A stretch of DNA of 23,554 bases from a virus. Within the stretch, counting starts at the first letter, position 1; the number at the start of each line of letters is the position of its first letter. The stretch lies in the IMG/VR virus record IMGVR_UViG_3300048839_001225, positions 1 through 23,554 of that record, one strand, 5' to 3'. The translations under genes and the position numbers were made by a program. Below the pieces are notes generated by a model. It was not told the origin of the DNA. It ran no database searches and saw nothing but the letters and a program-made list of their open reading frames with translations. Of the stretch, positions 1 to 23,554 are shown one piece after another.

Positions 1-387
1 AGAGGCCGCGTACTGCGGGCCCCACCAACTGAACGCGGTGGCGCTTTCGACATTCAGCGTCGCCGCGATCTGCATGTAGCCCGTCTCGGCGGGGAGCCCG
101 GCGAAGACGGTGCCGTCATCGGTCCACGCCTTGAGGTGTGCGGCGGTCGATCCCTCGACCGAGAGATCGTTGACCGTTACGCCGACGGGCTCGCCCTGCA
201 CGAAGGAGAGCTGCACGATGTAACCCGCCGTGCGGACGATCGGGATGCCGGTGTTGACGACCTGCCACGCGAATCCGTCGTGATACTGCAGCCGGAGGGT
301 CGTGTCGGTCGCGCCCTCGGGGATCCGGATGCCGAGTTCGGGCGTGCCGTCGGCGGCGTGCAGCGTGATGTCCAGGCGGGAGTCGCC
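1..387. repeat. Left copy of 387-bp near-identical terminal direct repeat
   Basis: Bases 1-387 align without gaps to 23168-23554 with 7 substitutions (positions 61, 103, 163, 168, 169, 178 and 270). The repeat lies wholly inside the large virion-protein gene and is cut by both window ends. This fits the overlap of a circular molecule, or two paralogous genes. Confidence 0.97.
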
Positions 388-3418: not shown

Positions 3419-3609
3419 CTCGCGCCCCACTTGGCCTGCGCGGCCCTGAGCCGCCGCTGGGTCCTCTCCAGCTCGTCGGCGAGCGCGGAGAGCAGAGGCT
3501 CGATCTGGCAGGCCCAGATCGTGCAGCCCTCGCAGCGGATGTTGCGCCCGACCTCCCGGGCCCGCTCAACCAGCCGATCCGCACGATCTCCATCGCGGCC
3601 GAGTTTCAT
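3415..3609 (-). CDS. Small Cys-cluster/coiled-coil early protein (64 aa)
   Basis: ATG at 3609 (MKLGRDGDRADRLVE) overlaps the stop of the replication initiator by 4 nt. The protein is two charged helices flanking three cysteines, C26, C29 and C34 (RCEGCTIWACQ). The second helix is a likely coiled coil (LLSALADELERTQRRLRAAQ). The Cys trio could bind a metal, but a fourth ligand is not obvious. Its place directly after the initiator, with translational coupling, suggests it works with replication; this is inference. Confidence 0.68.
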   Translation of the reverse strand: MKLGRDGDRADRLVERAREVGRNIRCEGCTIWACQIEPLLSALADELERTQRRLRAAQAKWGAR

Positions 3610-4727
3610 GGGGCATCCTCCTGGCTGGCGGCCTCCAGGACGCGCTCGAGAAGGCCGCGGGAGAGCACCAGGCGGCGCCGCTCCTCGGTCGTGCGGGACC
3701 AAAGCAGGTCCCGGTACCAGTTCGAGTCGGTGGTCCGGGCGAACGCCTCGATGGCCGCGTCGAGGCCCTCCTCGCCGAGTGCCTCGACGCGGGCGGCGGC
3801 CTGGCGTTCCGCCTCCTGGGCGATCGCCAGCTCGGCCTCGCGCTCCCGTCGGCGCCGCTCGGATGCGGATTCGGAAATCCGGTCCCGCTCCGCCTGCTCC
3901 CGCTGTCGCCTACGTTCGGCTTCGATATCCAAGAAGCTCGGTTCCCGGATCCGGGAGATGACCCAGCCCGGAACCCCGCCAGGCCGCAGAGAATCCCGCC
4001 TGGCGCGTCCGGCCGCCAGGGCGGCCCGGACCACGGTCGGGGTCGTCAGCGTCAGGCAGGCGAGCTCCCTGGCGGTCCGTGGGTCGATCCAGTCCGAGCG
4101 TCCGTACCACTCGGGCTTGCGGACGATCAGCTCGTAGCAGACCGCGGCGTTGCCGTCGAGACCGGCCCCGTGATGGACGGGCTCCGGCTCCGAGCGCGTA
4201 GATCGAACCCCACCACCACCACCATCCGCCCTGATGGTGGTGGTGGTAGAAGTCTTGTTAGATACAGTGAGGTATAACGGCGACTGATGTCCGCACGGCT
4301 GGACATCTGATGTCCGGACGCGTGGACATCTGATGTCCGGACGCGTGGACATCTGATGTCCGGACGCGTGGACATCGGGCGCGAAGATGTAAGGTACACG
4401 ATCGGGCTCCTGCGGCGGTACGTTGTGGGTCTGCATGGCACTCCCGATCGTCAGGAGATAGATCGACGCACGCCCCGTTCGGGTGCGTCGAAGCAGGCCA
4501 CGGGAGCCGAGCTCCGCCAGAGCCTGGAACATCCGGCTCCGCCCCAGGCCCGAGTGCCGGATCAGGGCGGTAGCCCTGGCCTCGACGGCCCACCCGTCCC
4601 CGTCGTCGTGCGGGAAGCTCATCGCGACCAGCACGCCCAGAAGCAGGCGGGCCGCCGGCGTGAGCCCCAGCTCGGCGCCGGTCTCGATCGCGAATCGGGT
4701 CATCGAGGCTTTGGATCGTGCGTCCAT
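3606..4727 (-). CDS. Lambda-O-like replication initiator with internal origin iterons
   Basis: ATG at 4727 (MDARSKASMTRFAIE) is chosen over an open extension because GAGGG lies 5 nt upstream. The 373-residue protein has a winged-helix-like N-terminal domain at about 1-95 (TPAARLLLGVLVAMSF; SGLGRSRMFQALAELGSRG; wing RTRTGRASIYLL). A low-complexity linker follows at about 115-180, then a charged, largely helical C-terminal region with a Glu/Arg coiled coil at about 265-320. The linker is encoded by four 23-bp iterons (residues 118-148) and a long hairpin (161-172). This is the architecture of lambda O: DNA-binding head, origin inside the gene, C-terminal part for helicase loading. It follows the integrase and heads the early chain. 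Initiator function is strongly suggested by architecture; a generic HTH regulator is the alternative. Confidence 0.82.
   Translation of the reverse strand: MDARSKASMTRFAIETGAELGLTPAARLLLGVLVAMSFPHDDGDGWAVEARATALIRHSGLGRSRMFQALAELGSRGLLRRTRTGRASIYLLTIGSAMQTHNVPPQEPDRVPYIFAPDVHASGHQMSTRPDIRCPRVRTSDVQPCGHQSPLYLTVSNKTSTTTTIRADGGGGGVRSTRSEPEPVHHGAGLDGNAAVCYELIVRKPEWYGRSDWIDPRTARELACLTLTTPTVVRAALAAGRARRDSLRPGGVPGWVISRIREPSFLDIEAERRRQREQAERDRISESASERRRREREAELAIAQEAERQAAARVEALGEEGLDAAIEAFARTTDSNWYRDLLWSRTTEERRRLVLSRGLLERVLEAASQEDAP
4212..4247. repeat. Long perfect hairpin next to iterons
   Basis: Bases 4212-4225 and 4234-4247 are perfect inverted repeats of the form (ACC)n/(GGT)n with a 14-bp stem and an 8-nt loop. 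It lies inside the initiator gene and encodes a Thr-run and a Gly-run. The stretch between it and the iterons (4248-4284) is the least GC-rich part of the gene and could be the unwinding element. The origin role is inferred by analogy with lambda ori. Confidence 0.75.
4285..4376. repeat. Four tandem 23-bp iterons, probable replication origin
   Basis: Units start at 4285, 4308, 4331 and 4354 with an exact 23-bp period. Each has the dyad GATGTCC-N8-GGACATC. The last three are identical and the first differs only in the N8 spacer (GCACGGCT in place of GGACGCGT). Because 23 is not a multiple of three, the encoded peptide reads the unit in successive frames (DVHASGHQ, MSTRPDIR, CPRVRTSD). Iterons inside an initiator gene, next to a less GC-rich stretch, match lambdoid origins. 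Confidence 0.9.
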
Positions 4728-4814
4728 GCGGCCCTCAGAGGGTGTCGGCCCTGATGTGGTGCAGGTGTGATGCGGCAATCCCCGTCGGCCCGGTGGGGGC
4801 ACGCCGGAGACGGT

Positions 4815-5858: not shown

Positions 5859-6199
5859 GGTCCCAACCGCCGATACCCCTGTTGAACGCGCCGCGGGTCG
5901 GGGATCAGGGCCCCGCGTCGCCGGCGGCTTGGTGAGCCGCCGGTAAGACGCTACTGGGCCCGGGGGCCTCGGTCAAGGGGTGAGGGCGATTGTGGATAAC
6001 CCGGAGGCGGCCGGTGGGCCGCCCCCGGGCGCCCCACGCGCCCAGCCGGCTTACCAGGCCGACCCGCCCCGGAGGGCTGTGGCGCGTGGGTATGGCTCGG
6101 CGTTCAACGCGCCTCGCCATGCCCGTTTTTCCCGAGAATCGGGCCGTTTCTCGGTCCCTCGGTCGACTCCGGCGGTTGGGCGGGCTTCGGCCTCGGGAA
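5859..6199. other. Non-coding integrase upstream region with hairpins and a DnaA box
   Basis: I see no convincing gene here; short open frames show no coding-like residue pattern. It contains a 9-bp perfect stem at 5921-5929/5935-5943, a perfect DnaA box TTATCCACA on the minus strand (5991-5999), and a 7-bp stem at 6132-6138/6148-6154 beside a T5 run. The position between attP and integrase suggests arm-type integrase sites and the integrase promoter, but no clear -35/-10 pair is visible. Confidence 0.55.
5991..5999 (-). promoter_or_regulatory. Perfect DnaA box (TTATCCACA)
   Basis: The minus strand has the exact 9-mer consensus for bacterial DnaA, in a local AT-richer patch between attP and the integrase. 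I noticed no second box close by, and a single box may be chance or regulatory. Confidence 0.45.
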
Positions 6200-6246
6200 A
6201 GCGGGTGATCGGACTCGAACCGACGACATTCAGCTTGGGAAGCTGA
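6200..6246 (-). other. attP: 3' half of tRNA-Gly(CCC): probable phage attachment site attP
   Basis: On the minus strand there is a perfect anticodon stem (TCAGC/GCTGA) with loop TTCCCAA (anticodon CCC at 6239-6237), a 5-nt variable loop, a T-arm with TTCGAGT loop, and the acceptor 3' strand CACCCGC with discriminator T. The 5' acceptor strand (expected GCGGGTG) and D-arm are absent upstream, so this is not a functional tRNA. A tRNA 3' half beside an integrase gene is the standard signature of an attP that restores the host tRNA on integration. The host target is therefore predicted to be tRNA-Gly(CCC). Confidence 0.88.
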
Positions 6247-6283
6247 TCGTCACTCGGCCCGAAAATATCGCGGCGGGCGAGTC

Positions 6284-6463
6284 TCAACGCGTCATCAGCC
6301 ATCCGGCGATCAGGACCTGGCCCAGGCCCGAGAGGCTGTTGCCCAGCCAGACCGCGCCCGCGATCGCGATAAAGTCCCCCCAGCTCAGCACGCCCCTGGT
6401 TTTGACCTTGAGGGCATAGCGCGGCCACTGGATCGAGAGATGGCGTTCGGTCGGCTCGTTCAT
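6284..6463 (-). CDS. Small membrane protein (59 aa), holin candidate
   Basis: An ATG at 6463 opens a 59-residue frame (MNEPTERHLSIQWPRYALKV) ending at 6284, with strongly G/C-biased third positions like its neighbours. Residues about 30-57 form one long hydrophobic segment, or a tight hairpin (DFIAIAGAVWLGNSL, then GLGQVLIAGWLM), preceded by a basic amphipathic N-terminus. This is compatible with a small holin or other phage membrane protein. The ribosome site is weak (GGGG about 1 nt before ATG). It stands alone between the tail operon and attP. The function is not established by sequence alone. Confidence 0.55.
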   Translation of the reverse strand: MNEPTERHLSIQWPRYALKVKTRGVLSWGDFIAIAGAVWLGNSLSGLGQVLIAGWLMTR

Positions 6464-9654: not shown

Positions 9655-10469
9655 CAGACCCCCAGGTCGCCCCAGGCGACGAACTCATAGAGCCGATGGA
9701 CGAAGTACCAGCCCGCACGCGCGACGACGATGCCCAGGGCGTCGTCGAAGTCGGCGGTTGGGCTGATCTCGAGAAAGTCCCAGCCCGCGACATCAGCGCT
9801 CATGCCGTCGCCGACCGGGACGCCGGCCTCGTTGCGTCGATAGCCGAACTCGTACCGGGCGGCGTAGCGGCCGGTCGCCTGTTGCTCGATCGAGAGGCCC
9901 TGGAACAGGAGCGTCCCCGCCGGGAAGACCTTAAACGGCTGGGCGTTGACCGTGCCGAACGCGGCGACCAGGTTGCCCAGCAGCCCGTCGATTTCCTGTT
10001 GGCTGAACTCCCGGGTGTAGCCGGTGGTCCAGACCGGGCGGAGCACGGCGGTCCCCTCGGCCTGGCCGTCCTTGTTGACGCGGATGAGCTGGTCGTGGTC
10101 CGGCGCGGGCCCCGCGCCGCCGCTCCGGCCGGAGCTGACGACCGCGTGGGAGCGGTTCATCGTCTCGGTCGTGAGCGTGCCGGCGTAGGAGACGAGGGTG
10201 TTCGTGGGGAGCGCGGTGAACCCCGAGCCCGCGCCGTACCGGGCCTCGCAGTGGTACAGGTGCCGCGGCCCGACCGCGACGACCTCGGTCGCCTCGATCC
10301 CAGAGAGGCTAAACCCGTCGTACTCGGGCGGGGCCTGGAGGCCGACCGCCTCGCGGACCTCAGCGAGACCCTCGTTGGCGGGGTCGGTGGCGATCGCGCG
10401 GTAGAACAGGGAGCCGCCGGCGGGCCCGAACTTGTTCTCGCCGCGTCGGCGGGGATGGACCTCGATCAC
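9654..10469 (-). CDS. Tail protein following the tape measure (271 aa), distal-tail-like position
   Basis: It starts MIEVHPRRRGENKFG at 10469 with an ATGA overlap to the tape measure gene and ends in a TGATG overlap. The conserved-looking stretch includes YTREFSQQEIDGLL, VNAQPFKVFPAGTLLFQG and ARYEFGYRRNEAG, a pattern of a mixed alpha/beta tail protein. In siphoviruses the gene after the tape measure usually encodes the distal tail protein. That role is inferred from synteny only. No catalytic motif is visible. Confidence 0.77.
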   Translation of the reverse strand: MIEVHPRRRGENKFGPAGGSLFYRAIATDPANEGLAEVREAVGLQAPPEYDGFSLSGIEATEVVAVGPRHLYHCEARYGAGSGFTALPTNTLVSYAGTLTTETMNRSHAVVSSGRSGGAGPAPDHDQLIRVNKDGQAEGTAVLRPVWTTGYTREFSQQEIDGLLGNLVAAFGTVNAQPFKVFPAGTLLFQGLSIEQQATGRYAARYEFGYRRNEAGVPVGDGMSADVAGWDFLEISPTADFDDALGIVVARAGWYFVHRLYEFVAWGDLGV

Positions 10470-12235
10470 CGGAATACCCCCTGGTTCTCCGTGTTGCGAG
10501 CGATCTCTCTGACGACGGACTCGATGTTGCCCATCTTGTTGAGGATGCGGTCGTTGGCGACGCCGAACATCGCCTGCAGCGCGGACGAGGCGCTCAGGCT
10601 GCCGACGGCGGCCGAGACGGAGGGGAGGCGGCGGCGATCGCTCTCGGCCTGGGTGGTACGCTCGGCCTCGGTGGAGGCCCGGGCCTCGCGGCCACGAGCC
10701 AGGGACTGCTCCAGCTCGCGGCGGTACTGCTCGATCTCGCGGCGGGCCTCGCGGACAGCGCCGGATTCGCGTGCCTCGGCTTCTCTGGAGAGGTCGGTGA
10801 TCAGGTCCTGGGCCTCGGCCAGGGTGTTGCCCTCCAGCAGCTGGCCGGTCCGCCGGTGGTAGTCGAGCTGGGCCCGGCGGCGATCCTGCTCGGCGACCAC
10901 GGCCTCGGCCTGGTCGGTGTAGTTGAAGAAATCCAGCCAGATCCGCTGGGCTTCGAGGCCGGTGTCGACCGCCATCCGCTTGGCCCGGTCGAAGAGCCCG
11001 GGGACGGCGACCATGCCCTGGGCGATGCTGTCAACGACGCCCTGCCGGGTGTTCTCTCTGCCCGCCATGTCGTCGACCAAGTGGTCAAAGTCCGATCCGA
11101 TCCGCTCGAACTCGCGGAGGAACGCGAGGCGGACGCCGGCGGCCGCGACTTTGGCCGCCGCCTCGATCTGCCCGGCGGCCAGGAGCTGCGTGACCAGGCC
11201 GGCGGTCTCGCCCAGCTCGCGGCCGAGCTCCCGGAACGCGTCTCGGCCGTCTCGGGTGCCGGCGATCGCGCCGACCAGGGCGGCGACCGAGCCCGCGAGG
11301 AGGAGGGCCGGGTTGCTCGCGGCCAGGGCGAGCACGCCCAGGCCCGCGATTGCCGCGCCCGCGGCCGCGACCGCCCCGGCGACCCGGACGGCGCTGTCGA
11401 TAACCTGGGGATTCGTGGCGAGCCAGTCGCGGGTGGAGTCGACCACGCCGTTCAGGGCCTGCAGATACCCGGTGAACCGGCCGATCAGGGAGGAGCCGAT
11501 CGAGGCCCGAAGATCAAAGAGCTCATCATTCAGTCGCCGCATCTGGTTCGCCCAGGCGTCCGAGGTCCGGACGGCGTCGCCGACGGCGCCCTGATCGCCC
11601 ATGACCCTCGCGATGATGCTGGTCCTGGCGACGGCCTTGCTCAGCTCGTCCGCGGCCGCGGTGCTCGCGGCGAGCCCGAGCCGCTGCAGCTCCAGGTCCA
11701 GCGCGGCCTGCTTGATGTTGATGCCGAACCGGTCGAGGACCTCGCCGGATCCGGACAAGGCCGCGATAAACCGGTTTGAGGCTTCGTCGTCGCTCAGATT
11801 GTTGAAGGACGCGAAGTCCAGGCTGAGCTCCGCCATGCGGCGGCTGAGCAGCGAGGCCTGGTCGGCCCCGAACCCCAGGCCGACGAAGAACGACTGAAAA
11901 TTCGCCATGGTCGCCCGGAGCCGGGTGCCAGAACGCCCGACCGCCTCGCCGAGGGCATCGGCAAAGCGGCCGGCCTCGTCCGCCCCCTCGCGGAAGACCA
12001 GGCGGAACCGATTGCGGATCTCCTCGGCGTCGCTGGCGGCCTTGATGCTGATCGCGGCGATGGGGGCGACCGCCGCGCTGCTCGCGGCGAGCATCGAAAC
12101 CCCGAGCGTCCGTGCCGAGGTCCCGAACGCCGCGAGCCGCCGGCGGGCGCTTTCGAGCGTGTGGTTGAGGTGCGAATCCTTGCCGAGGAGCTCGACATAG
12201 GCCTCGCCCGCCCGGATGGCCCGCGAACTCGTCAA
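10466..12235 (-). CDS. Tail tape measure protein
   Basis: A 589-residue protein starting MTSSRAIRAGEAYVELLG. It is long, helical and alanine-rich, with coiled-coil stretches at both ends. Residues about 280-345 form hydrophobic segments (VAGAVAAAGAAIAGLGVLAL; NPALLLAGSVAALVGAIAG), as in most tape measure proteins. The N-terminal part (TLESARRRLAAFG..ARTLG, then SDAEEIRNRFRLVF) is the usual start of phage tape measure families. It sets tail length and is shorter than average, so a short tail is expected. It lies after the chaperone and lipoprotein genes. The identification is firm from composition and position. Confidence 0.92.
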   Translation of the reverse strand: MTSSRAIRAGEAYVELLGKDSHLNHTLESARRRLAAFGTSARTLGVSMLAASSAAVAPIAAISIKAASDAEEIRNRFRLVFREGADEAGRFADALGEAVGRSGTRLRATMANFQSFFVGLGFGADQASLLSRRMAELSLDFASFNNLSDDEASNRFIAALSGSGEVLDRFGINIKQAALDLELQRLGLAASTAAADELSKAVARTSIIARVMGDQGAVGDAVRTSDAWANQMRRLNDELFDLRASIGSSLIGRFTGYLQALNGVVDSTRDWLATNPQVIDSAVRVAGAVAAAGAAIAGLGVLALAASNPALLLAGSVAALVGAIAGTRDGRDAFRELGRELGETAGLVTQLLAAGQIEAAAKVAAAGVRLAFLREFERIGSDFDHLVDDMAGRENTRQGVVDSIAQGMVAVPGLFDRAKRMAVDTGLEAQRIWLDFFNYTDQAEAVVAEQDRRRAQLDYHRRTGQLLEGNTLAEAQDLITDLSREAEARESGAVREARREIEQYRRELEQSLARGREARASTEAERTTQAESDRRRLPSVSAAVGSLSASSALQAMFGVANDRILNKMGNIESVVREIARNTENQGVFR

Positions 12236-16319: not shown

Positions 16320-17831
16320 TTACGAGCCGGCGGACTTCTGGGCGCCCTTCGGGTCGACAAACGCGGCGCCAACGGCGAGGTAACCCTGGTAGAAGAGGCC
16401 GAGGCTGTTGTACGGGGCCGGGACGCGGCGGACGGTCGGGGTCCGGACCCCGCCGACGAACGCGAGCTCGAGCGCGGCGACCATGCTCGGGTCGGCCAGG
16501 AGATACCAGGCCGCCGCCGAGTAGCCGCTGTAGCTCGCGTCGGAGAGGTGCGGCGCGACGACCAGCTGGTACTTGTTGCGCCACGGGTTTCCGTCGGCCT
16601 TCTCGGCCGCGGTCGATCCCGTGAGGTTGACGCCGGCGGAGTTGAGCAGGGCCTCGGCGTCGGTCTCCAGCTCGGGGGGGACCAGGAGGATCTTGGGGTT
16701 GACCTGGATCGGACGATCGTCCTTGGCCTTGGCGCCCGGGCCGGCCTTGAGCTTCCGGAAAGCCTTACGGGCGTTGGCGAGACCGGTCAGGCCGAACGCG
16801 GAGCCGGCCCCGGTGAGGAGGTTCGCGTTGTCGCTGTGAAAGAACGACCCGGTGTTCGCGAGGATCAGCGTAAAAAGCTTATGGTCGATGAGCGAGGCGC
16901 CGGAGTGCCCGAGGAGTGTGCCGATGTCGTTCAGGATGCCCAGGTCGTCGTTGACAAAGTCCTTGTAGTCGATCCCGAGGACCTGGCCGTGCAGCGTGGC
17001 TTGGTTGGTGTAGCGGTCGTCGTCGAGGGTGCCGCTCTTGAGCGTGCCGTCCTTGCCGACCTCTTCCCACTGCCCGGTGCCGGTCAGGCGGTAGGCTTCT
17101 ACCTGCTTGAAGTCCGGGACATTCCGGGTCCGGGCGATCTGGAACCCGACGATTTCGTGGGCCTCGTAGATCCGCAGCGCGATCTTCCCGACGACATTCG
17201 AGGCGACCGAGGAGAGCGAGCGGGTGGAGGTCGCGGCCTCGATCACAGAGCGGCCATCGCCGAAGACGCTGGGGACATCCGCCCCGTCGTTCCGGGCGGA
17301 CATAAGGGCGAGGTCCCGGAGGCCGATGCCGCGGAACCGGTCCGCCTGGTTCATGGTCTGCTCGCCGTAGGCTTTGAGCGTCGCCTCGTCGTCGTAGCCC
17401 AGGCTGATCATGCAGGCGGCCTCGAGGACCGTGGTGTTGACCGGCTGGCCGGCGGTGCCACGGCGGGCGGCCAGATCCACGGTGGGCCGGCTCGCCCGCA
17501 GGAGCTGCAGCTCGGTCCGCTCGGGGGTCCACCCTTTCTCGATGGCCTCGGCGGCGATGTCGGCGTTGGCCTCGCCGCAGAGCTCCCGGACGGCCGAAAT
17601 GCGTTTCTGCTCGGCGGCGTACTGGGCCCGGACCTCGCCGATGATCTTCCCGGCCTCCTCGGCGAGGTCGTCGCGGTCCGGGTCCTCGTGACCCTCGCGG
17701 CCCGATCGGGCCGCGACGATCCGTAGCTCGCCCTTCTCGATCTTCCAGGCCTGCTCCAGGGAGGCCTTCATCTCGTCGGTCAGCTTCGACGCCTCCAGGC
17801 CGAGCTTTTTCAGCCAGTCTTCGAACTTCAT
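16320..17831 (-). CDS. Probable internal-start product: scaffold plus major capsid protein
   Basis: Inside the fused gene, codon 190 is an ATG (MKFEDWLKKLGLEASK) preceded by a near-perfect ribosome site GGAAGGA with 6 nt spacing (17844-17838). The product, 503 residues, would begin exactly at the protease/scaffold boundary. This mirrors lambda C/Nu3, where an in-frame internal start makes a second product. It would let the capsid be made in excess of the protease. Inferred from sequence; needs protein data. Confidence 0.6.
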   Translation of the reverse strand: MKFEDWLKKLGLEASKLTDEMKASLEQAWKIEKGELRIVAARSGREGHEDPDRDDLAEEAGKIIGEVRAQYAAEQKRISAVRELCGEANADIAAEAIEKGWTPERTELQLLRASRPTVDLAARRGTAGQPVNTTVLEAACMISLGYDDEATLKAYGEQTMNQADRFRGIGLRDLALMSARNDGADVPSVFGDGRSVIEAATSTRSLSSVASNVVGKIALRIYEAHEIVGFQIARTRNVPDFKQVEAYRLTGTGQWEEVGKDGTLKSGTLDDDRYTNQATLHGQVLGIDYKDFVNDDLGILNDIGTLLGHSGASLIDHKLFTLILANTGSFFHSDNANLLTGAGSAFGLTGLANARKAFRKLKAGPGAKAKDDRPIQVNPKILLVPPELETDAEALLNSAGVNLTGSTAAEKADGNPWRNKYQLVVAPHLSDASYSGYSAAAWYLLADPSMVAALELAFVGGVRTPTVRRVPAPYNSLGLFYQGYLAVGAAFVDPKGAQKSAGS

Positions 17832-18398
17832 GGGGTTTCCTTCCGTGCTCGCGGCGATGCGCGTGGTGGTGCCCCGGTCCGCACCGAGGGCGACGAAACT
17901 GACCTCGTAGACGACCGTTTTACGGGCGACCACGATGGGCCCGTCGAAGGTCCGGCCGTTGACTGTGACCCGCTTGCCCGCCTTGACCAGCTCGGCCTCG
18001 ACGACCCTTGCCCCGATCGAGGCCTGCCAGGGAAAGCCCCGCTTGGCGCTCGCGAGGACATCCTCTCGCGGGGTCCCGGCCCCGCTGAGGACGCCGTCGA
18101 CATGGATGCCGGCGGCGTCGACCCGTATCGAGCCGTGCCCGACCGGCTCGGCGTGGTTGTGCCCGCGTAGCAGAGGGATCTCGGGGGTCTCGCTGGTGAC
18201 CCCGGCCAGGTCGACGACGACCGGGTGGGGGATCTGGGCGAACCGCATCGGGGCACCGGTGTAGGCGAGCATCGAGAGCCGCGGGGCGTCGCCGTCCGCG
18301 GCCTCCAGCGTGACCGCCAGCCCGGAATCCAGCGTGAACCCGGCCCGGAGCGTGCCCGGGTCGTAGGCGGCCTGGATGATCAGCTCTTGGCGGCTCAC
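16320..18398 (-). CDS. Fused prohead protease-scaffold-major capsid protein
   Basis: A 692-residue protein with ATG at 18398 in a 4-nt overlap with the portal gene. The N-terminal region (about 1-185) is an HK97-type prohead serine protease: His in LRGHNHAEPVGH (H80/H82), Ser in PWQASIGA (S127) and Glu in VYEVSFVALGAD (E165) are in family order and spacing. Residues about 190-290 are charged and helical, like a delta/scaffold domain. About 290-692 is an HK97-fold-type capsid domain (NTTVLEAACMISLGY; RDLALMSARNDG; SAAAWYLLADPSMVAALELA). A strong internal start at residue 190 could yield scaffold-capsid without protease. Self-cleavage is likely after assembly. The fusion is known in several phages but is less common than separate genes. 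Confidence 0.9.
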   Translation of the reverse strand: MSRQELIIQAAYDPGTLRAGFTLDSGLAVTLEAADGDAPRLSMLAYTGAPMRFAQIPHPVVVDLAGVTSETPEIPLLRGHNHAEPVGHGSIRVDAAGIHVDGVLSGAGTPREDVLASAKRGFPWQASIGARVVEAELVKAGKRVTVNGRTFDGPIVVARKTVVYEVSFVALGADRGTTTRIAASTEGNPMKFEDWLKKLGLEASKLTDEMKASLEQAWKIEKGELRIVAARSGREGHEDPDRDDLAEEAGKIIGEVRAQYAAEQKRISAVRELCGEANADIAAEAIEKGWTPERTELQLLRASRPTVDLAARRGTAGQPVNTTVLEAACMISLGYDDEATLKAYGEQTMNQADRFRGIGLRDLALMSARNDGADVPSVFGDGRSVIEAATSTRSLSSVASNVVGKIALRIYEAHEIVGFQIARTRNVPDFKQVEAYRLTGTGQWEEVGKDGTLKSGTLDDDRYTNQATLHGQVLGIDYKDFVNDDLGILNDIGTLLGHSGASLIDHKLFTLILANTGSFFHSDNANLLTGAGSAFGLTGLANARKAFRKLKAGPGAKAKDDRPIQVNPKILLVPPELETDAEALLNSAGVNLTGSTAAEKADGNPWRNKYQLVVAPHLSDASYSGYSAAAWYLLADPSMVAALELAFVGGVRTPTVRRVPAPYNSLGLFYQGYLAVGAAFVDPKGAQKSAGS

Positions 18399-19879
18399 GC
18401 GTCGTCCTCCTCTCCCTCGGCGCCGACCGCGGCCTTGTCGCGGGACCCCGGGGCCCCGCCGACCGCCAGGGAATCGATGTTCACGCCGAGCTGGTCGGCG
18501 TAGTCTCGCTCGCGGGCGACCTGTTCCAGCTCACGCTCCCAGTCCGCGCCGTAGGCCTCGGAGAAATAGCGGTCCAGGCTGAGCAGCTTGCTGCGGCGCA
18601 GGATCTCCGCCGCCTTGGCGTCCTTTTCGGGGTCTCCGCTGGTCAGCGCGTCCCACCGCCAGGCGTGCCGGACCTGATCCATCCTGATCCCGCGGGGGAT
18701 CTGGCCCGGGATCAGCGCCGCTTCGCGGATCCAGGCGGCAAAGACCGGGTGCAGGACCGAGGCCTCGATCTCCCGCCGCTCGACTCGGATCGAGGCGTAA
18801 TAGACGCCGTGGTCCAGCTTGCCCGAGGCGAAGTTCTGGCCGTCGTTGCTCGCCAGGGCGATCGACAATGGCATGTCCAGGCAGCGGGAGAACTCGTTCA
18901 CGATCTCCCGGCGGAACTCTTTCAGCCCGGTGACATTCTGCTCGGGGCCGAGGCGCTTGGCCTTCCACCCGTCTGGCATGGTCAGCAGGTGGCCGGGCTC
19001 CAGCTCGATCGCGTCCAGCGGGTCCAACGGTGCCGCGCCCTCGGGGGCGTCGGATTCCATGACTCCGGCGATATTGGCGTTCAGCTCGGCGTTGAGAAGG
19101 GTGGCAAGGATGTAGCGGCGAAGGATCGCCCCGAGGGCCAGGGCCGGGGTCAGCTCGCTGACGCCGCGGGCCTCGCCCGGACGCACCGCGTGTCGGTAAT
19201 GGAGCATCTGCTCGGCGGGAATGACCTCGTAGTCGAGGGTATTGCCCAGGGCCCGGTCGTCACCCGGGTGGGCCTTGAGCAGGTCGTAGCTCACGATATT
19301 GCCCGCCCGGTCGAACCGGACGCCGTCGATCCGGAGCGGGTCGGCCGCCGGCAGGTCGGGCGTCGCGATCTGGTCGGCCTCGATCAGCCGCAGGTCGAGG
19401 CTGACGCCCTCGTAGAGCGGGTTCGTGGCGAGCAGGGCGAAGGCCTCGCCGTCGACGCACTTGGATCGCCGCATTATCCGGAGCTTCTCGCCGAGCCGGG
19501 CCCGGCGGGCCCAGGCAGCGAATGAATCCTCGATCTGCCGGTCCGCGTCGCGGTCGCCGGTGTCGATCCGGAGCATCGGTCCGGCGCCCACGGTGTGTTG
19601 CACGAGCGTCCGCAGCATGCCCGCGAGCAGGCTGTTGTTGGCCGCCTCGTACCGGGCCCGGTTCCGCAGGGCCTCCCGGACCTCGGGGGAGTTCGCGCTC
19701 CAGGCGGCCAGGTTGTCCGAATTCGACCAGTGCCTCGCGTTGGCGCCGTCGCTCTTGGCCGAGTCGTAGCCGGCGAAGAGCCTCCAGGCCTTGTCCACCG
19801 AGACGCGCGAGGCCGGCCCCTCGACCCGCTCGGGGGAGCGGCGGACCAGGCCGAGCTTGGCCAGGAGGCGGTCGATCAT
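18395..19879 (-). CDS. Lambda-type portal protein
   Basis: A 494-residue protein starting MIDRLLAKLGLVRRSPERVE with a 4-nt overlap to the gpW-like gene. It has the layout of lambda gpB/HK97-type portals: an N-terminal segment with FAGYDSAKSDGANARHWSNSD, then REALRNRARYEAANNSLLAGMLRTL, VSLDLRLIEADQI and QMLHYRHAVRPGEARGVSEL, a long stem helix region (AILRRYILATLLNAELNANI) and a C-terminal part with AWRWDALTSGDPEKDAKA. Lambda gpB is of comparable size (about 530). It forms the 12-fold ring at the packaging vertex. Terminase and gpW lie upstream, protease-capsid downstream. Confidence 0.93.
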   Translation of the reverse strand: MIDRLLAKLGLVRRSPERVEGPASRVSVDKAWRLFAGYDSAKSDGANARHWSNSDNLAAWSANSPEVREALRNRARYEAANNSLLAGMLRTLVQHTVGAGPMLRIDTGDRDADRQIEDSFAAWARRARLGEKLRIMRRSKCVDGEAFALLATNPLYEGVSLDLRLIEADQIATPDLPAADPLRIDGVRFDRAGNIVSYDLLKAHPGDDRALGNTLDYEVIPAEQMLHYRHAVRPGEARGVSELTPALALGAILRRYILATLLNAELNANIAGVMESDAPEGAAPLDPLDAIELEPGHLLTMPDGWKAKRLGPEQNVTGLKEFRREIVNEFSRCLDMPLSIALASNDGQNFASGKLDHGVYYASIRVERREIEASVLHPVFAAWIREAALIPGQIPRGIRMDQVRHAWRWDALTSGDPEKDAKAAEILRRSKLLSLDRYFSEAYGADWERELEQVARERDYADQLGVNIDSLAVGGAPGSRDKAAVGAEGEEDDA

Positions 19880-20096: not shown

Positions 20097-20321
20097 TCAG
20101 CCGTCCTGGTCCTCGTCTTCGCGGTCGCGATCAGATTGGCGCATATGTGCGCCTTTCTGCGTGGCCGCGACGCCGGCGACCGTCTCCACGGTGAAATAGG
20201 CCGCTCCGCACCAGCCGCAGACGCGGCGACGGCGGACCTTGCCCAGGACCTTGGTCGTGCGGACGACGTCGCTCATCGGGCAGTGGCAGCGGGGGCATTT
20301 CAGGCCGCGGTCGGCGGTCAT
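20097..20321 (-). CDS. Stand-alone NrdR-like zinc ribbon protein (74 aa)
   Basis: Start ATG at 20321 overlaps the terminase stop by 4 nt. It has a C-x2-C...C-x2-C zinc ribbon: C9 and C12 in KCPRCHC, C35 and C38 in RRRRVCGWCGAAYFTVET. The RRRR.C..C....FT.E arrangement is very like the N-terminal zinc ribbon of NrdR repressors, but the ATP-cone is missing and the protein ends in a charged tail (RQSDRDREDEDQDG). Another option is a Mu Com-like translational regulator. It may control late transcription or translation. The ribbon is clear; the role is inference. Confidence 0.8.
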   Translation of the reverse strand: MTADRGLKCPRCHCPMSDVVRTTKVLGKVRRRRVCGWCGAAYFTVETVAGVAATQKGAHMRQSDRDREDEDQDG

Positions 20322-22423
20322 CGCCCGGCCCTCCGCTCCGCCTGGAGCTCACGCAGGCTTTTGGTCGGACGGGCGCGTTCCCGGGGGGCCTCGCGCCGTT
20401 CGCCCTCCAGAAGGGCCGCGCCGACGACCGAAGCGGCGACGCAACAGCCGACCACGCCGTCGAGCAGGTGGTTGTCGCGCCCCCGCAGAACCTTCCACTC
20501 GTCGACCGTGCGGCCGCCCGAGCTGGTAACCCGCTGCCGCTCCTCGGCCGTCAGATGCTCGGCGAGCATGCGGTGACTCTTGGCGTCGGCGGTGGTTCCG
20601 GGGAGCCAGAGCGCGGCCCGGTCCCCCCTGGGCGTGGTCAGTCGGGCCCAGGTGAACGATTTCCAGAAATTTGTGTCCCAGACGACCTCGCGAATAGCCC
20701 GACGGCCGCCGGGGGCCGCGATGAACCAGCCCGGGCCGATGCGGTCGCCGCGCTTCTTCGTCCGGTCGTGGATAGGCTTGGAGCTTGCCCCGTAGTATCG
20801 GCCTCGGCTCGGCATGACGCGGGCCGCGTGCCGGGTCGAGCGGGCCCAGCTGAAAACGGTCTCGGTGCTCCAGTTCGCGTCGACCATGAACAAGTCCAAG
20901 GGCACGACGCCGCCGCTGTGTCGCTTCCATTCGCGGTCCAGGAGGCGGGAGGCGAGCCGCTCCAGGCCGGCCGTGATCGCGCCCTCCTGGCCGGCTCCTG
21001 GCGCCGCCCGCTTAAGCGTCCGCTTGATGTCGCGAAGGGTGAAGTAGGCGCGGCCCTGGTCCGGCTCGGTCCCGTAGTCGACAATCCAGGCGTCGAATCC
21101 CTTGCCGTACGCGATCGCGACCCAGAACAGGGCTCGGCCCTGGACATCGGCGAACGCGGTCAGAAACTCCGCTTCGTCGGGAACCAGCCCTCTCGGCACC
21201 CCGGATACCCGCTCCTGGACCTCGTCGGGCTTCAGGATCGCCGTTTCCTCGTCCACGCCCTCGCGGATCGGCTCGTTCTGCAGTTCGGCGAAGAACATCG
21301 CGGGTTTGGCCAGGTAGACCCGCATCACGCCTTCGAGCGCCGAGGCCTCGTCGGGCTTGTAGCGGGCCTCCCAGGCGACGCGGGCCCCCAGGTCCATCTC
21401 GGCCCGCCGGTCGCGGTAAAAAGCGGCGGCGGTCTCCGTGTCGCCCGTGGGCAGGCCCGCCCGGTAGAGCTCGCCGTAGGCCTCCCAGAGGTCCATCCGG
21501 GTCGGAAACTCGTACAGGGCCCGGCATCGCTCGGCCCTCCATTCCGGGTGTTTCTCGACATTCAGCAGGCGATCGGCCAGGTCATCGGGCTCGATGACGG
21601 TGATCGCCGCCAGGCCCGCGATCGACTTCCCGGGTCCGGCCAGGCCCAATATGGCGTTGTCCACCACGGCCTCGCGGGCCTGGATCTGCGAGGGGCTTTT
21701 GGCGCTCTCGTCGGTCTGGGGGTCGTCGATCAGGACCAGGTCGGGGCGGACGCTAGACCCGTCCGCGAGGGCGTGTTTCATGCCGCGGATCCGGCCGGTG
21801 ATCCCGGCCGCCTGGATGACAGATCCCGAGACCAGCGAGTTCTCGACGGTCGGCATGACCAGCTTTCGCTCGGTCAGGCGGATCCGCGTGCTCCAGCCCC
21901 GGCTCAACTGGCCGGCGGCCCGCTGGCGGATGCCCTCGAGCCGACGGATCGGGTAGCAGACCTCGGGGAAGTCCGCCGCGAGCCGCTCGTTGGTCTCGAG
22001 CTGGACCAGGATCGCCTCGATGATCTGTCTGGCGTGGTCGTTCTCGGCGCCGATGATGACGGTGTACCGGCAGTGGCTGTAGAGCGTCGCCCAAATCGGG
22101 CTGACCTCGGCGAGCAGGCTGGTCTTGCCCGAGCCTCGCGGCATGGCCACGGCGGCCAGCTGGCCGCGGAGGACGGCGGACTCGATCAGGCCGATGACGC
22201 GGATGTGATCCGGCGACCAGGCCAGTTGGAAGATCTGCGGGAAGTATGTCTCGCAGAACATACGCAGGTCGAGCCGGCAGGCCTCGCGTCGGTCGGGTGT
22301 TTCGACCGGCGGGATCGGGCCGATGTCACGCGCGGTCCGGGAGTCCTCCGCCGCGCGGCCGGCCATGCGCTCGCGGTGGCGGCCGTAGGCGGAATCGACC
22401 TGTCCAAAGAGTCCCACCGCCAT
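20318..22423 (-). CDS. Terminase large subunit, lambda GpA-type
   Basis: A 701-residue DNA packaging motor and nuclease. Walker A is MPRGSGKT (94-101) and Walker B is DLVLIDD (228-234), in the N-terminal ATPase domain. The C-terminal nuclease domain has acidic residues at FADVQGR (D426), FMVDANWST (D515) and NHLLDGV (D655), as in the GpA family. Length is slightly above lambda gpA (641). No separate small subunit (Nu1-like) gene is recognisable immediately upstream; the neighbour is the virion protein at 22442. This gene starts the head module and is coupled to the zinc ribbon gene by 4 nt. Confidence 0.94.
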   Translation of the reverse strand: MAVGLFGQVDSAYGRHRERMAGRAAEDSRTARDIGPIPPVETPDRREACRLDLRMFCETYFPQIFQLAWSPDHIRVIGLIESAVLRGQLAAVAMPRGSGKTSLLAEVSPIWATLYSHCRYTVIIGAENDHARQIIEAILVQLETNERLAADFPEVCYPIRRLEGIRQRAAGQLSRGWSTRIRLTERKLVMPTVENSLVSGSVIQAAGITGRIRGMKHALADGSSVRPDLVLIDDPQTDESAKSPSQIQAREAVVDNAILGLAGPGKSIAGLAAITVIEPDDLADRLLNVEKHPEWRAERCRALYEFPTRMDLWEAYGELYRAGLPTGDTETAAAFYRDRRAEMDLGARVAWEARYKPDEASALEGVMRVYLAKPAMFFAELQNEPIREGVDEETAILKPDEVQERVSGVPRGLVPDEAEFLTAFADVQGRALFWVAIAYGKGFDAWIVDYGTEPDQGRAYFTLRDIKRTLKRAAPGAGQEGAITAGLERLASRLLDREWKRHSGGVVPLDLFMVDANWSTETVFSWARSTRHAARVMPSRGRYYGASSKPIHDRTKKRGDRIGPGWFIAAPGGRRAIREVVWDTNFWKSFTWARLTTPRGDRAALWLPGTTADAKSHRMLAEHLTAEERQRVTSSGGRTVDEWKVLRGRDNHLLDGVVGCCVAASVVGAALLEGERREAPRERARPTKSLRELQAERRAGR

Positions 22424-22441: not shown

Positions 22442-23554
22442 TCATCGCCGCCGGCGTCGACCGAGCGCCATGATGGCGGCCTCGGTGCCGCCGCTGGCCG
22501 GGGGATTGATCGCCGGCCCGGCCCCCTGGTAAACACCCCAGAGGTACGCTCTCGACCCGTTGTTCCCCTGAGGGTGGACATTGCCCTCGTCGAGACGGAC
22601 GGCCTCGGTCGCCTCGGACTCGCCACCGAAGACCTCGGCCAGGTCGAAGAACCCGAGCCCGCCGAGCGAGCCCGCCGCGTTGAGGTCGCGCTCCCACTCG
22701 TTTATCGCCAGGTGGTTCGACACGCGATCGGCGACATACGAGGCGAACGCGGAGGGGGTCGGTGTCGGGCCGAGCAGGAGATTGCCGCCACCGGAGCGGT
22801 ACGCTGCGATGAGCGTCTGTGTTGGGGCCTGTATGCCGGAGAGGTTGCCGAGTTCGTTTACCGTGCCGTTGATCTTGCCATCGATGATGTGGAGCGGAAA
22901 CGATCGACTTGCCGAGACCCAGGCATCAGCATCGTCTTCGAGCGAGTAGGTCAGGAAGTCCTCGATTGACATCCCCGACCGTCCGTAGCAGCAGAACGGA
23001 CCCGAGGGCAGCGAGTAGAGACCGAAGCCCGAGGCGGCCTCGCCGCGCCCCATCTCGGCGTCATAGGCCCGCCGAGCCCAGTATCCCGGCGTGCTGCTGA
23101 CCGGGCGGACCAGGCCGCCGCTCCCGGCGGTGGTGTTTGTGTAAGAGGACTCGATGAGCATCGGCAGAGAGGCCGCGTACTGCGGGCCCCACCAACTGAA
23201 CGCGGTGGCGCTTTCGACATTCAGCGTTGCCGCGATCTGCATGTAGCCCGTCTCGGCGGGGAGCCCGGCAAAGACGGTGCCGTCATCGGTCCACGCCTTG
23301 AGGTGTGCGGCGGTCGATCCCTCGACCGAAAGATTATTGACCGTCACGCCGACGGGCTCGCCCTGCACGAAGGAGAGCTGCACGATGTAACCCGCCGTGC
23401 GGACGATCGGGATGCCGGTGTTGACGACCTGCCACGAGAATCCGTCGTGATACTGCAGCCGGAGGGTCGTGTCGGTCGCGCCCTCGGGGATCCGGATGCC
23501 GAGTTCGGGCGTGCCGTCGGCGGCGTGCAGCGTGATGTCCAGGCGGGAGTCGCC
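22442..23554 (-). CDS. Large virion protein, C-terminal part, 5' end cut by window end; SGNH-esterase-like domain
   Basis: The frame is open at the window end and stops at 22442, 18 nt before terminase. Its first 129 codons match residues 355-483 of the gene at 1-1449 with two amino-acid changes (D to N, A to S). The C-terminal region has a pattern of SGNH/GDSL hydrolases, second half: HIIDGKINGTVNE (block III-like G..N), LIAAYRSGGGNLLLGPTPTP, NEWERDLNAAGSLGGLGFFD and DEGNVHPQGNNGS (block V-like His). The expected D-x-x-H spacing is altered, and a block I GDS is seen only as GDSRLD in a strand-like context, so activity is doubtful. Such domains in tails may deacetylate surface sugars. It ends in an Arg-rich tail (GRRRRR). 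Confidence 0.72.
   Translation of the reverse strand, partial: GDSRLDITLHAADGTPELGIRIPEGATDTTLRLQYHDGFSWQVVNTGIPIVRTAGYIVQLSFVQGEPVGVTVNNLSVEGSTAAHLKAWTDDGTVFAGLPAETGYMQIAATLNVESATAFSWWGPQYAASLPMLIESSYTNTTAGSGGLVRPVSSTPGYWARRAYDAEMGRGEAASGFGLYSLPSGPFCCYGRSGMSIEDFLTYSLEDDADAWVSASRSFPLHIIDGKINGTVNELGNLSGIQAPTQTLIAAYRSGGGNLLLGPTPTPSAFASYVADRVSNHLAINEWERDLNAAGSLGGLGFFDLAEVFGGESEATEAVRLDEGNVHPQGNNGSRAYLWGVYQGAGPAINPPASGGTEAAIMALGRRRRR
23168..23554. repeat. Right copy of 387-bp near-identical terminal direct repeat
   Basis: It matches 1-387 without gaps with 7 substitutions; five are third-codon synonymous and two are missense. It runs to the very last base, as expected of an overlap from a closed circle. 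Confidence 0.97.

Follow-up and report, generated by a model that had tools for sequence, protein, structure and literature searches.

The tRNA-Gly(CCC) half and the genes around it

The stretch of DNA analysed here (23,554 nucleotides, hereafter the window) contains, next to a tyrosine integrase gene, 47 nt that read on the minus strand from 6246 to 6200 as positions 26-72 of bacterial tRNA-Gly(CCC) genes, with 100% identity (Table 1). The fragment opens with the anticodon arm, TCAGC TTCCCAA GCTGA (loop TTCCCAA, anticodon CCC), continues through the variable loop, the T-arm and the 3' acceptor strand, and stops at the discriminator base U73; the CCA end is not encoded. It points toward the integrase gene, whose start codon lies 341 nt beyond the 3' end of the tRNA half. 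The 25 bases on its 5' side are non-tRNA sequence. Because the window diverges from all intact genes directly 5' of the anticodon stem, with identity ending exactly at the foot of the stem, the D-arm and the 5' acceptor strand are missing from it. In line with this, no tRNA was called by ARAGORN anywhere in the 23,554-base window, and the Rfam family RF00005 scores 24.7 bits at 6257-6200 (minus), below its gathering score of 29. A self-search found the fragment once in the window.

Table 1. Features of the window (ends are given as positions in the window; a dot marks features without a strand).
Feature	Position	Strand	Support
End overlap, copy 1	1..387	.	98.2% identity with 23168-23554 (7 mismatches)
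Putative replication initiation protein, next to the integrase gene	3606..4802	-	phrog_270 6.6e-5, weak
Tyrosine integrase, 347 aa	4815..5858	-	PF00589 7.8e-14; phrog_1 2.2e-32
Spacer of 341 nt, tRNA half to integrase start; presumed P arm with inferred arm-type sites	5859..6199	.	
3' half of tRNA-Gly(CCC), 47 nt; proposed attP core	6200..6246	-	exact tRNA gene match
Phage sequence where a tRNA gene has its 5' half; predicted to precede attR in a prophage	6247..6283	.	no tRNA 5'-half match
Tape measure protein	10466..12235	-	phrog_1535 6.4e-8
Fused protease (inferred) and major capsid protein	16320..18398	-	PF25209 1.1e-28, PF10124 4.3e-8
Portal protein	18395..19879	-	PF05136 6.5e-47
Large terminase	20318..22423	-	PF20454 1.4e-23
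End overlap, copy 2; closes the circle at ~23,167 bp	23168..23554	.	

A scan of a genome collection of 84,980 species found the exact 47-mer in 21 stretches. ARAGORN called a complete tRNA-Gly(CCC) at the 47-mer in 18 of them, where the bases on the 5' side are the 5' half of the tRNA. The original prediction, made from the letters alone, had named the fragment as the 3' half of tRNA-Gly(CCC), with everything from the anticodon arm to the 3' acceptor strand present and the D-arm and 5' acceptor strand absent; the exact match to these 18 genes and the alignment to them bear out both statements. The minus-strand position of the fragment and its orientation toward the integrase gene were not part of that prediction. 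The match to tRNA genes is not due to chance (as a control, the reversed 47-nt pattern matched none of 392 Planctomycetota genomes). When the 47 nt of the window were placed behind 25 nt from the 5' part of a host tRNA, ARAGORN called a tRNA-Gly(CCC), as expected from the sequence identity.

The remaining three stretches (L004, L010 and L013), all from cyanobacteria, hold 3' halves preceded by non-tRNA sequence, and this lead-in is common to the three. From their sequence, we read these halves as putative attR ends, left by a different element that uses this tRNA gene. On contig 2 of Phormidium tenue FACHB-1052, an intact tRNA-Gly(CCC) (L017:282) and a displaced 47-nt 3' half (L004:254) stand about 88 kb apart in the same orientation; this pair suggests that a cyanobacterial island has inserted at this tRNA gene. 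L010 and L013 contain similar halves.

The positions of the R, HxxR, H and Y motifs of the integrase are conserved in an alignment with its relatives. Short repeats in 5859-6300 are weak, and we gave them no weight as evidence for arm-type sites. No excisionase was identified, and three small ORFs of the window that were searched had no PHROGs match. An ORF of 59 aa with a hydrophobic stretch (6284-6463, minus) lies between the proposed attP and the tail genes and also has no PHROGs match.

A closed circular genome with the genes of a tailed temperate phage

The two ends of the window overlap by 387 nt, and the overlap reaches both exact ends. Its two copies differ at 2 residues in 129 codons, and on the minus strand a single 724-aa open frame extends from 22442 across the join to 1449. 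The overlap and the single frame through the join together indicate a circular, closed genome of about 23,167 bp, which may have been assembled from slightly different strains, given the seven mismatches. An overlap of 98.2% identity thus marks a complete circle that tests for exactly matching ends would miss. The missing 5' half had been taken as confirmation of the excised or circular form. The form itself stands, by virtue of the 387-nt overlap, but the tRNA half alone is no proof of it, since an attR on a truncated contig looks the same. As the circle is closed and contains a single tRNA half, this half is read as attP.

Terminase, portal, capsid, tail and integrase genes are all present in this one closed genome, as in a complete tailed temperate phage, and the terminase, portal, capsid and tape measure genes are on the same strand as the integrase gene. 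We infer the protease part of the capsid fusion from its length and from annotated relatives. Lysis and repressor genes were not identified in the window. Tandem 23-bp repeats (CTGATGTCCGGACGCGTGGACAT) occur at 4284-4375, within the putative replication initiator gene, and are possibly iteron-like origin sites.

No close phage relative was found by megablast among 50,697 phage records. In the viral contig collection, the 47-mer was present in no other viral contig, a pattern scan gave no relative of the capsid protein, and an integrase scan gave three distant contigs, one of which has a complete tRNA-Val(GAC) upstream of its integrase gene; the short stretches searched in the other two (L027 and L029) gave no tRNA match. 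Neither the phage records nor the viral contigs contained an integrated copy of the window phage or of a close relative.

Related integrases lie beside tRNA genes in Planctomycetota

Integrase matches (E <= 1e-15) were found in 63 of 392 Planctomycetota genomes. All listed matches except one short piece (G360:C34) were taken, which yielded 96 integrase ORFs from 94 loci. For 89 of the integrase genes the available upstream sequence spans 450 nt or more. Of these, 71 have a complete tRNA on the same strand within 450 nt upstream, and the other 18 have no tRNA in that interval; an upstream tRNA on the opposite strand, or a tRNA within 450 nt downstream, was seen for none of the 89. Among 74 genes labelled with their tRNA, the distance from tRNA to integrase is 131-323 nt (median 183), so the 341-nt spacer of the window is longer than that of every labelled relative. 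Their targets cover 25 anticodons and 16 amino acids, and five are tRNA-Gly(CCC).

In four of the nine cases of integrase plus tRNA that were examined, a displaced 3' half of 42-44 nt was found 10-46 kb away. The elements bounded in this manner are of 31,869 bp at a tRNA-Gly(CCC) (G227, L138-L140; 44-nt repeat, integrase 175 nt downstream of the tRNA), 11,045 bp at a tRNA-Gln(TTG) (G031, L145:8370-19415; 44-nt repeat), 9,877 bp at a tRNA-Gln(CTG) (G112, L148:5668-15545; 42-nt repeat) and 45,882 bp at a tRNA-Asp(GTC) (G375, L151-L153; 43-nt repeat). All four repeats start inside the anticodon arm and extend to the 3' end of the tRNA, like the fragment in the window. The attR repeat was absent from the sequence read in the other five cases (G302, G116, G318, G344 and G391), and the contig ends nearby in G302 and G391.

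The element in G375 is a prophage whose gene order (tRNA, integrase, terminase, portal, capsid, tail) is that of the window opened at 6200; 18 window proteins were searched against it, and 11 have a relative there (52% for the terminase). The original prediction counted a lack of related prophages at tRNA-Gly genes as a refuting result, and this result did not arise. The G227 element has a related integrase and both att ends at tRNA-Gly(CCC); as a related prophage it qualifies by these features but not by its structural genes, among which no relative of those of the window was found.

The two elements at tRNA-Gln genes (11.0 and 9.9 kb) encode an integrase and a capsid protein related to that of the window, one of them also a tape measure protein; tblastn found in them no relative of the window terminase or portal protein. 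Such elements could possibly be capsid-encoding satellites or decayed prophages. In G112 (L148-L150), an element of 18.8 kb adjoins the tRNA-Gln element, with a tRNA-Lys(TTT) at 16360 and its 42-nt 3' half at 35143. A tandem pair of related integrase genes follows a single tRNA-Gly(CCC) in G116 (L134 / L142), suggesting stacked insertions. In G285, the tRNA-Gly(CCC) called by ARAGORN at L203:9554-9629 has a 5' half unlike that of tRNA-Gly, and an ordinary gene is present on another contig; the call is probably a displaced 3' half, a trap for the annotation of tRNA fragments.

The proposed attP and its alternatives

We consider it very likely that 6200-6246 is the attP core of a temperate phage whose complete, circular genome measures about 23,167 bp and which would integrate at a host tRNA-Gly(CCC) gene. 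The reading of the fragment as an attP, already put forward in the original prediction, agrees with the adjoining tyrosine integrase, the closed circle and the relatives integrated at tRNA genes, tRNA-Gly(CCC) included. Upon integration, the integrase would pair the attP core with the identical segment of the host tRNA-Gly(CCC) gene and exchange strands at the anticodon loop or close to it, the 5-bp stem arms providing an inverted repeat on either side of the 7-base loop. The attL formed at the integrase-proximal end would join the host 5' half to the phage 3' half, giving a working tRNA-Gly(CCC) followed within about 350 nt by the integrase gene, and the host's own 3' half would be displaced to attR, at the far end behind the tail genes. 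Pairing, exchange near the anticodon loop and rebuilding of the tRNA belong to the established model for such sites (PMC4383910, PMC10865867). We infer that this integrase acts on 6200-6246, and likewise the exact point of crossover, the arm-type sites and an excision factor.

Could the tRNA half instead be an attR, with the window no circle but a piece of a chromosome in which a prophage or some other element is integrated? An attR has the same appearance, a displaced 3' half without a complete tRNA, as seen at the three cyanobacterial loci L004, L010 and L013. This is very unlikely for the window, whose ends overlap by 387 nt to the exact ends in one common frame and which carries phage genes on both sides of the tRNA half; moreover, in the relatives attR is far from the integrase gene, whereas here this gene is 341 nt off, on the 3' side of the fragment. 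Even less probable is a cargo tRNA gene of the phage that has degenerated and has no role in integration. Many phages have tRNA genes and decay can leave fragments of them, but 47 nt are perfectly preserved here while the 5' half is wholly missing, the break falls exactly at the anticodon stem, and the integrase gene adjoins the half in a layout that the relatives also show. Least of all do we expect functional phage tRNA parts other than a core that rebuilds the gene, as in a split tRNA or in tRNA-dependent lysogeny: phages that combine a short core with a rescue tRNA are known (PMC10865867). For tRNA-dependent lysogeny one would expect a core near 10 bp in length together with an intact phage tRNA for the same isotype, but the 47-nt core of the window suffices to rebuild the tRNA, the window has no complete tRNA, and a self-search with 73 nt around the half gave no second tRNA part.

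With 6200-6246 as an attP core, the record represents the whole genome of a temperate phage, its predicted integration gene is named, and the exact junctions of the lysogen are predicted.

A probable planctomycete host

Relatives of the capsid protein were found in 49 of 392 Planctomycetota genomes, with up to 45% identity over almost the full protein, over against two other phyla: in that of G003, 9 of 151 genomes have partial relatives at 28-31%, and in that of G002 a single genome of 146 has one, at 25%. In the class to which G375 belongs, 60 of 248 genomes contain relatives of the terminase, and terminase relatives reach 54% over almost the full protein. The capsid and terminase sequences thus point to a planctomycete as the probable host; the call is probable rather than proven, as the comparison covers three phyla only. 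The tRNA half had also been expected to predict the host target. It does name the target gene, but it leaves the taxon of the host unspecified: the exact 47-mer is present in cyanobacteria, Chloroflexota and one Phycisphaerales bacterium. Among the 392 Planctomycetota genomes it is exact in one and present with up to three mismatches in 17.

Probable changes of target among the related integrases

On balance, we favour the view that the window integrase is one of a large set of Planctomycetota tyrosine integrases that have kept a fixed layout, in which a complete tRNA is followed after ~130-320 nt by the integrase gene on the same strand and the crossover is at the anticodon arm, while their targets changed repeatedly. 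A quick tree of 95 rows requires at least 43 changes of amino-acid label, and 200 shuffles of the labels require 47-56; targets thus appear slightly inherited and often changed. Many inner branches of this tree are weak. The trees are built from integrase ORFs of 280 aa or more; the careful tree comprises 40 hand-picked rows, and a trimmed quick tree omits ten loci with long branches or short ORFs.

The position of the window integrase is unstable across the quick, careful and trimmed trees. The G302 integrase, at a tRNA-Gly(CCC), came out as its sister in the quick tree (SH-aLRT 97), with both branches long; the pair had a support of 74 in the trimmed quick tree and was lost in the careful tree, and we do not retain it. 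The G302 ORF appears to be frameshifted toward its end, and by BLAST its product comes 90th among the relatives.

The breadth of tRNA targets in this planctomycete group may be new: among the titles listed by full-text searches, none was that of a paper on this subject, an absence that is not proof. If targets have indeed changed repeatedly, the group is a natural panel for learning how integrases acquire new targets, and uncultured phages could be assigned to hosts with the help of tRNA halves in circular virus records. That one group occupies most tRNA isotypes with one layout is useful for host assignment and for the study of integrase specificity.

Comparison with known systems

Att sites embedded in tRNA genes were reportedly classified by Williams in 2002 (listed among the references of PMC9897764). 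The window combines what characterizes such an attP at the anticodon subsite: the 3' part of a tRNA, an adjacent tyrosine integrase gene, a circle with a single copy and integrated relatives. In the 'A' sites (anticodon subsite) of Islander (PMC4383910), attP is a tRNA 3' fragment that starts from the anticodon arm, the integrase is of the tyrosine type and the target gene is rebuilt upon integration, and the same would hold here; the window shows no difference in kind, being read from a circular metagenomic virus record. The mycobacteriophages Boilgate and Omega (PMC10865867) have cores of 43 and 44 bp that are tRNA 3' halves, with attP beside the integrase gene like in the window, and an overlap located in the anticodon loop is described there as common for mycobacteriophages. 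Their targets are the Mycobacterium tRNA-Lys(TTT) and tRNA-Leu(CAA), whereas that of the window would be a tRNA-Gly(CCC) in a host that is probably a planctomycete.

Among the integrated elements, the G375 prophage resembles the window in having a related integrase beside a tRNA and an identical order of the related terminase, portal, capsid and tail genes, but it is of 45.9 kb vs 23.2 kb and uses tRNA-Asp vs tRNA-Gly. The G227 element shares the tRNA-Gly(CCC) target and a related integrase with the window and, unlike the G375 prophage, is without relatives of its structural genes. The mechanism is an ordinary one, and the window adds one case to the well known tRNA-embedded attP sites of the anticodon type.
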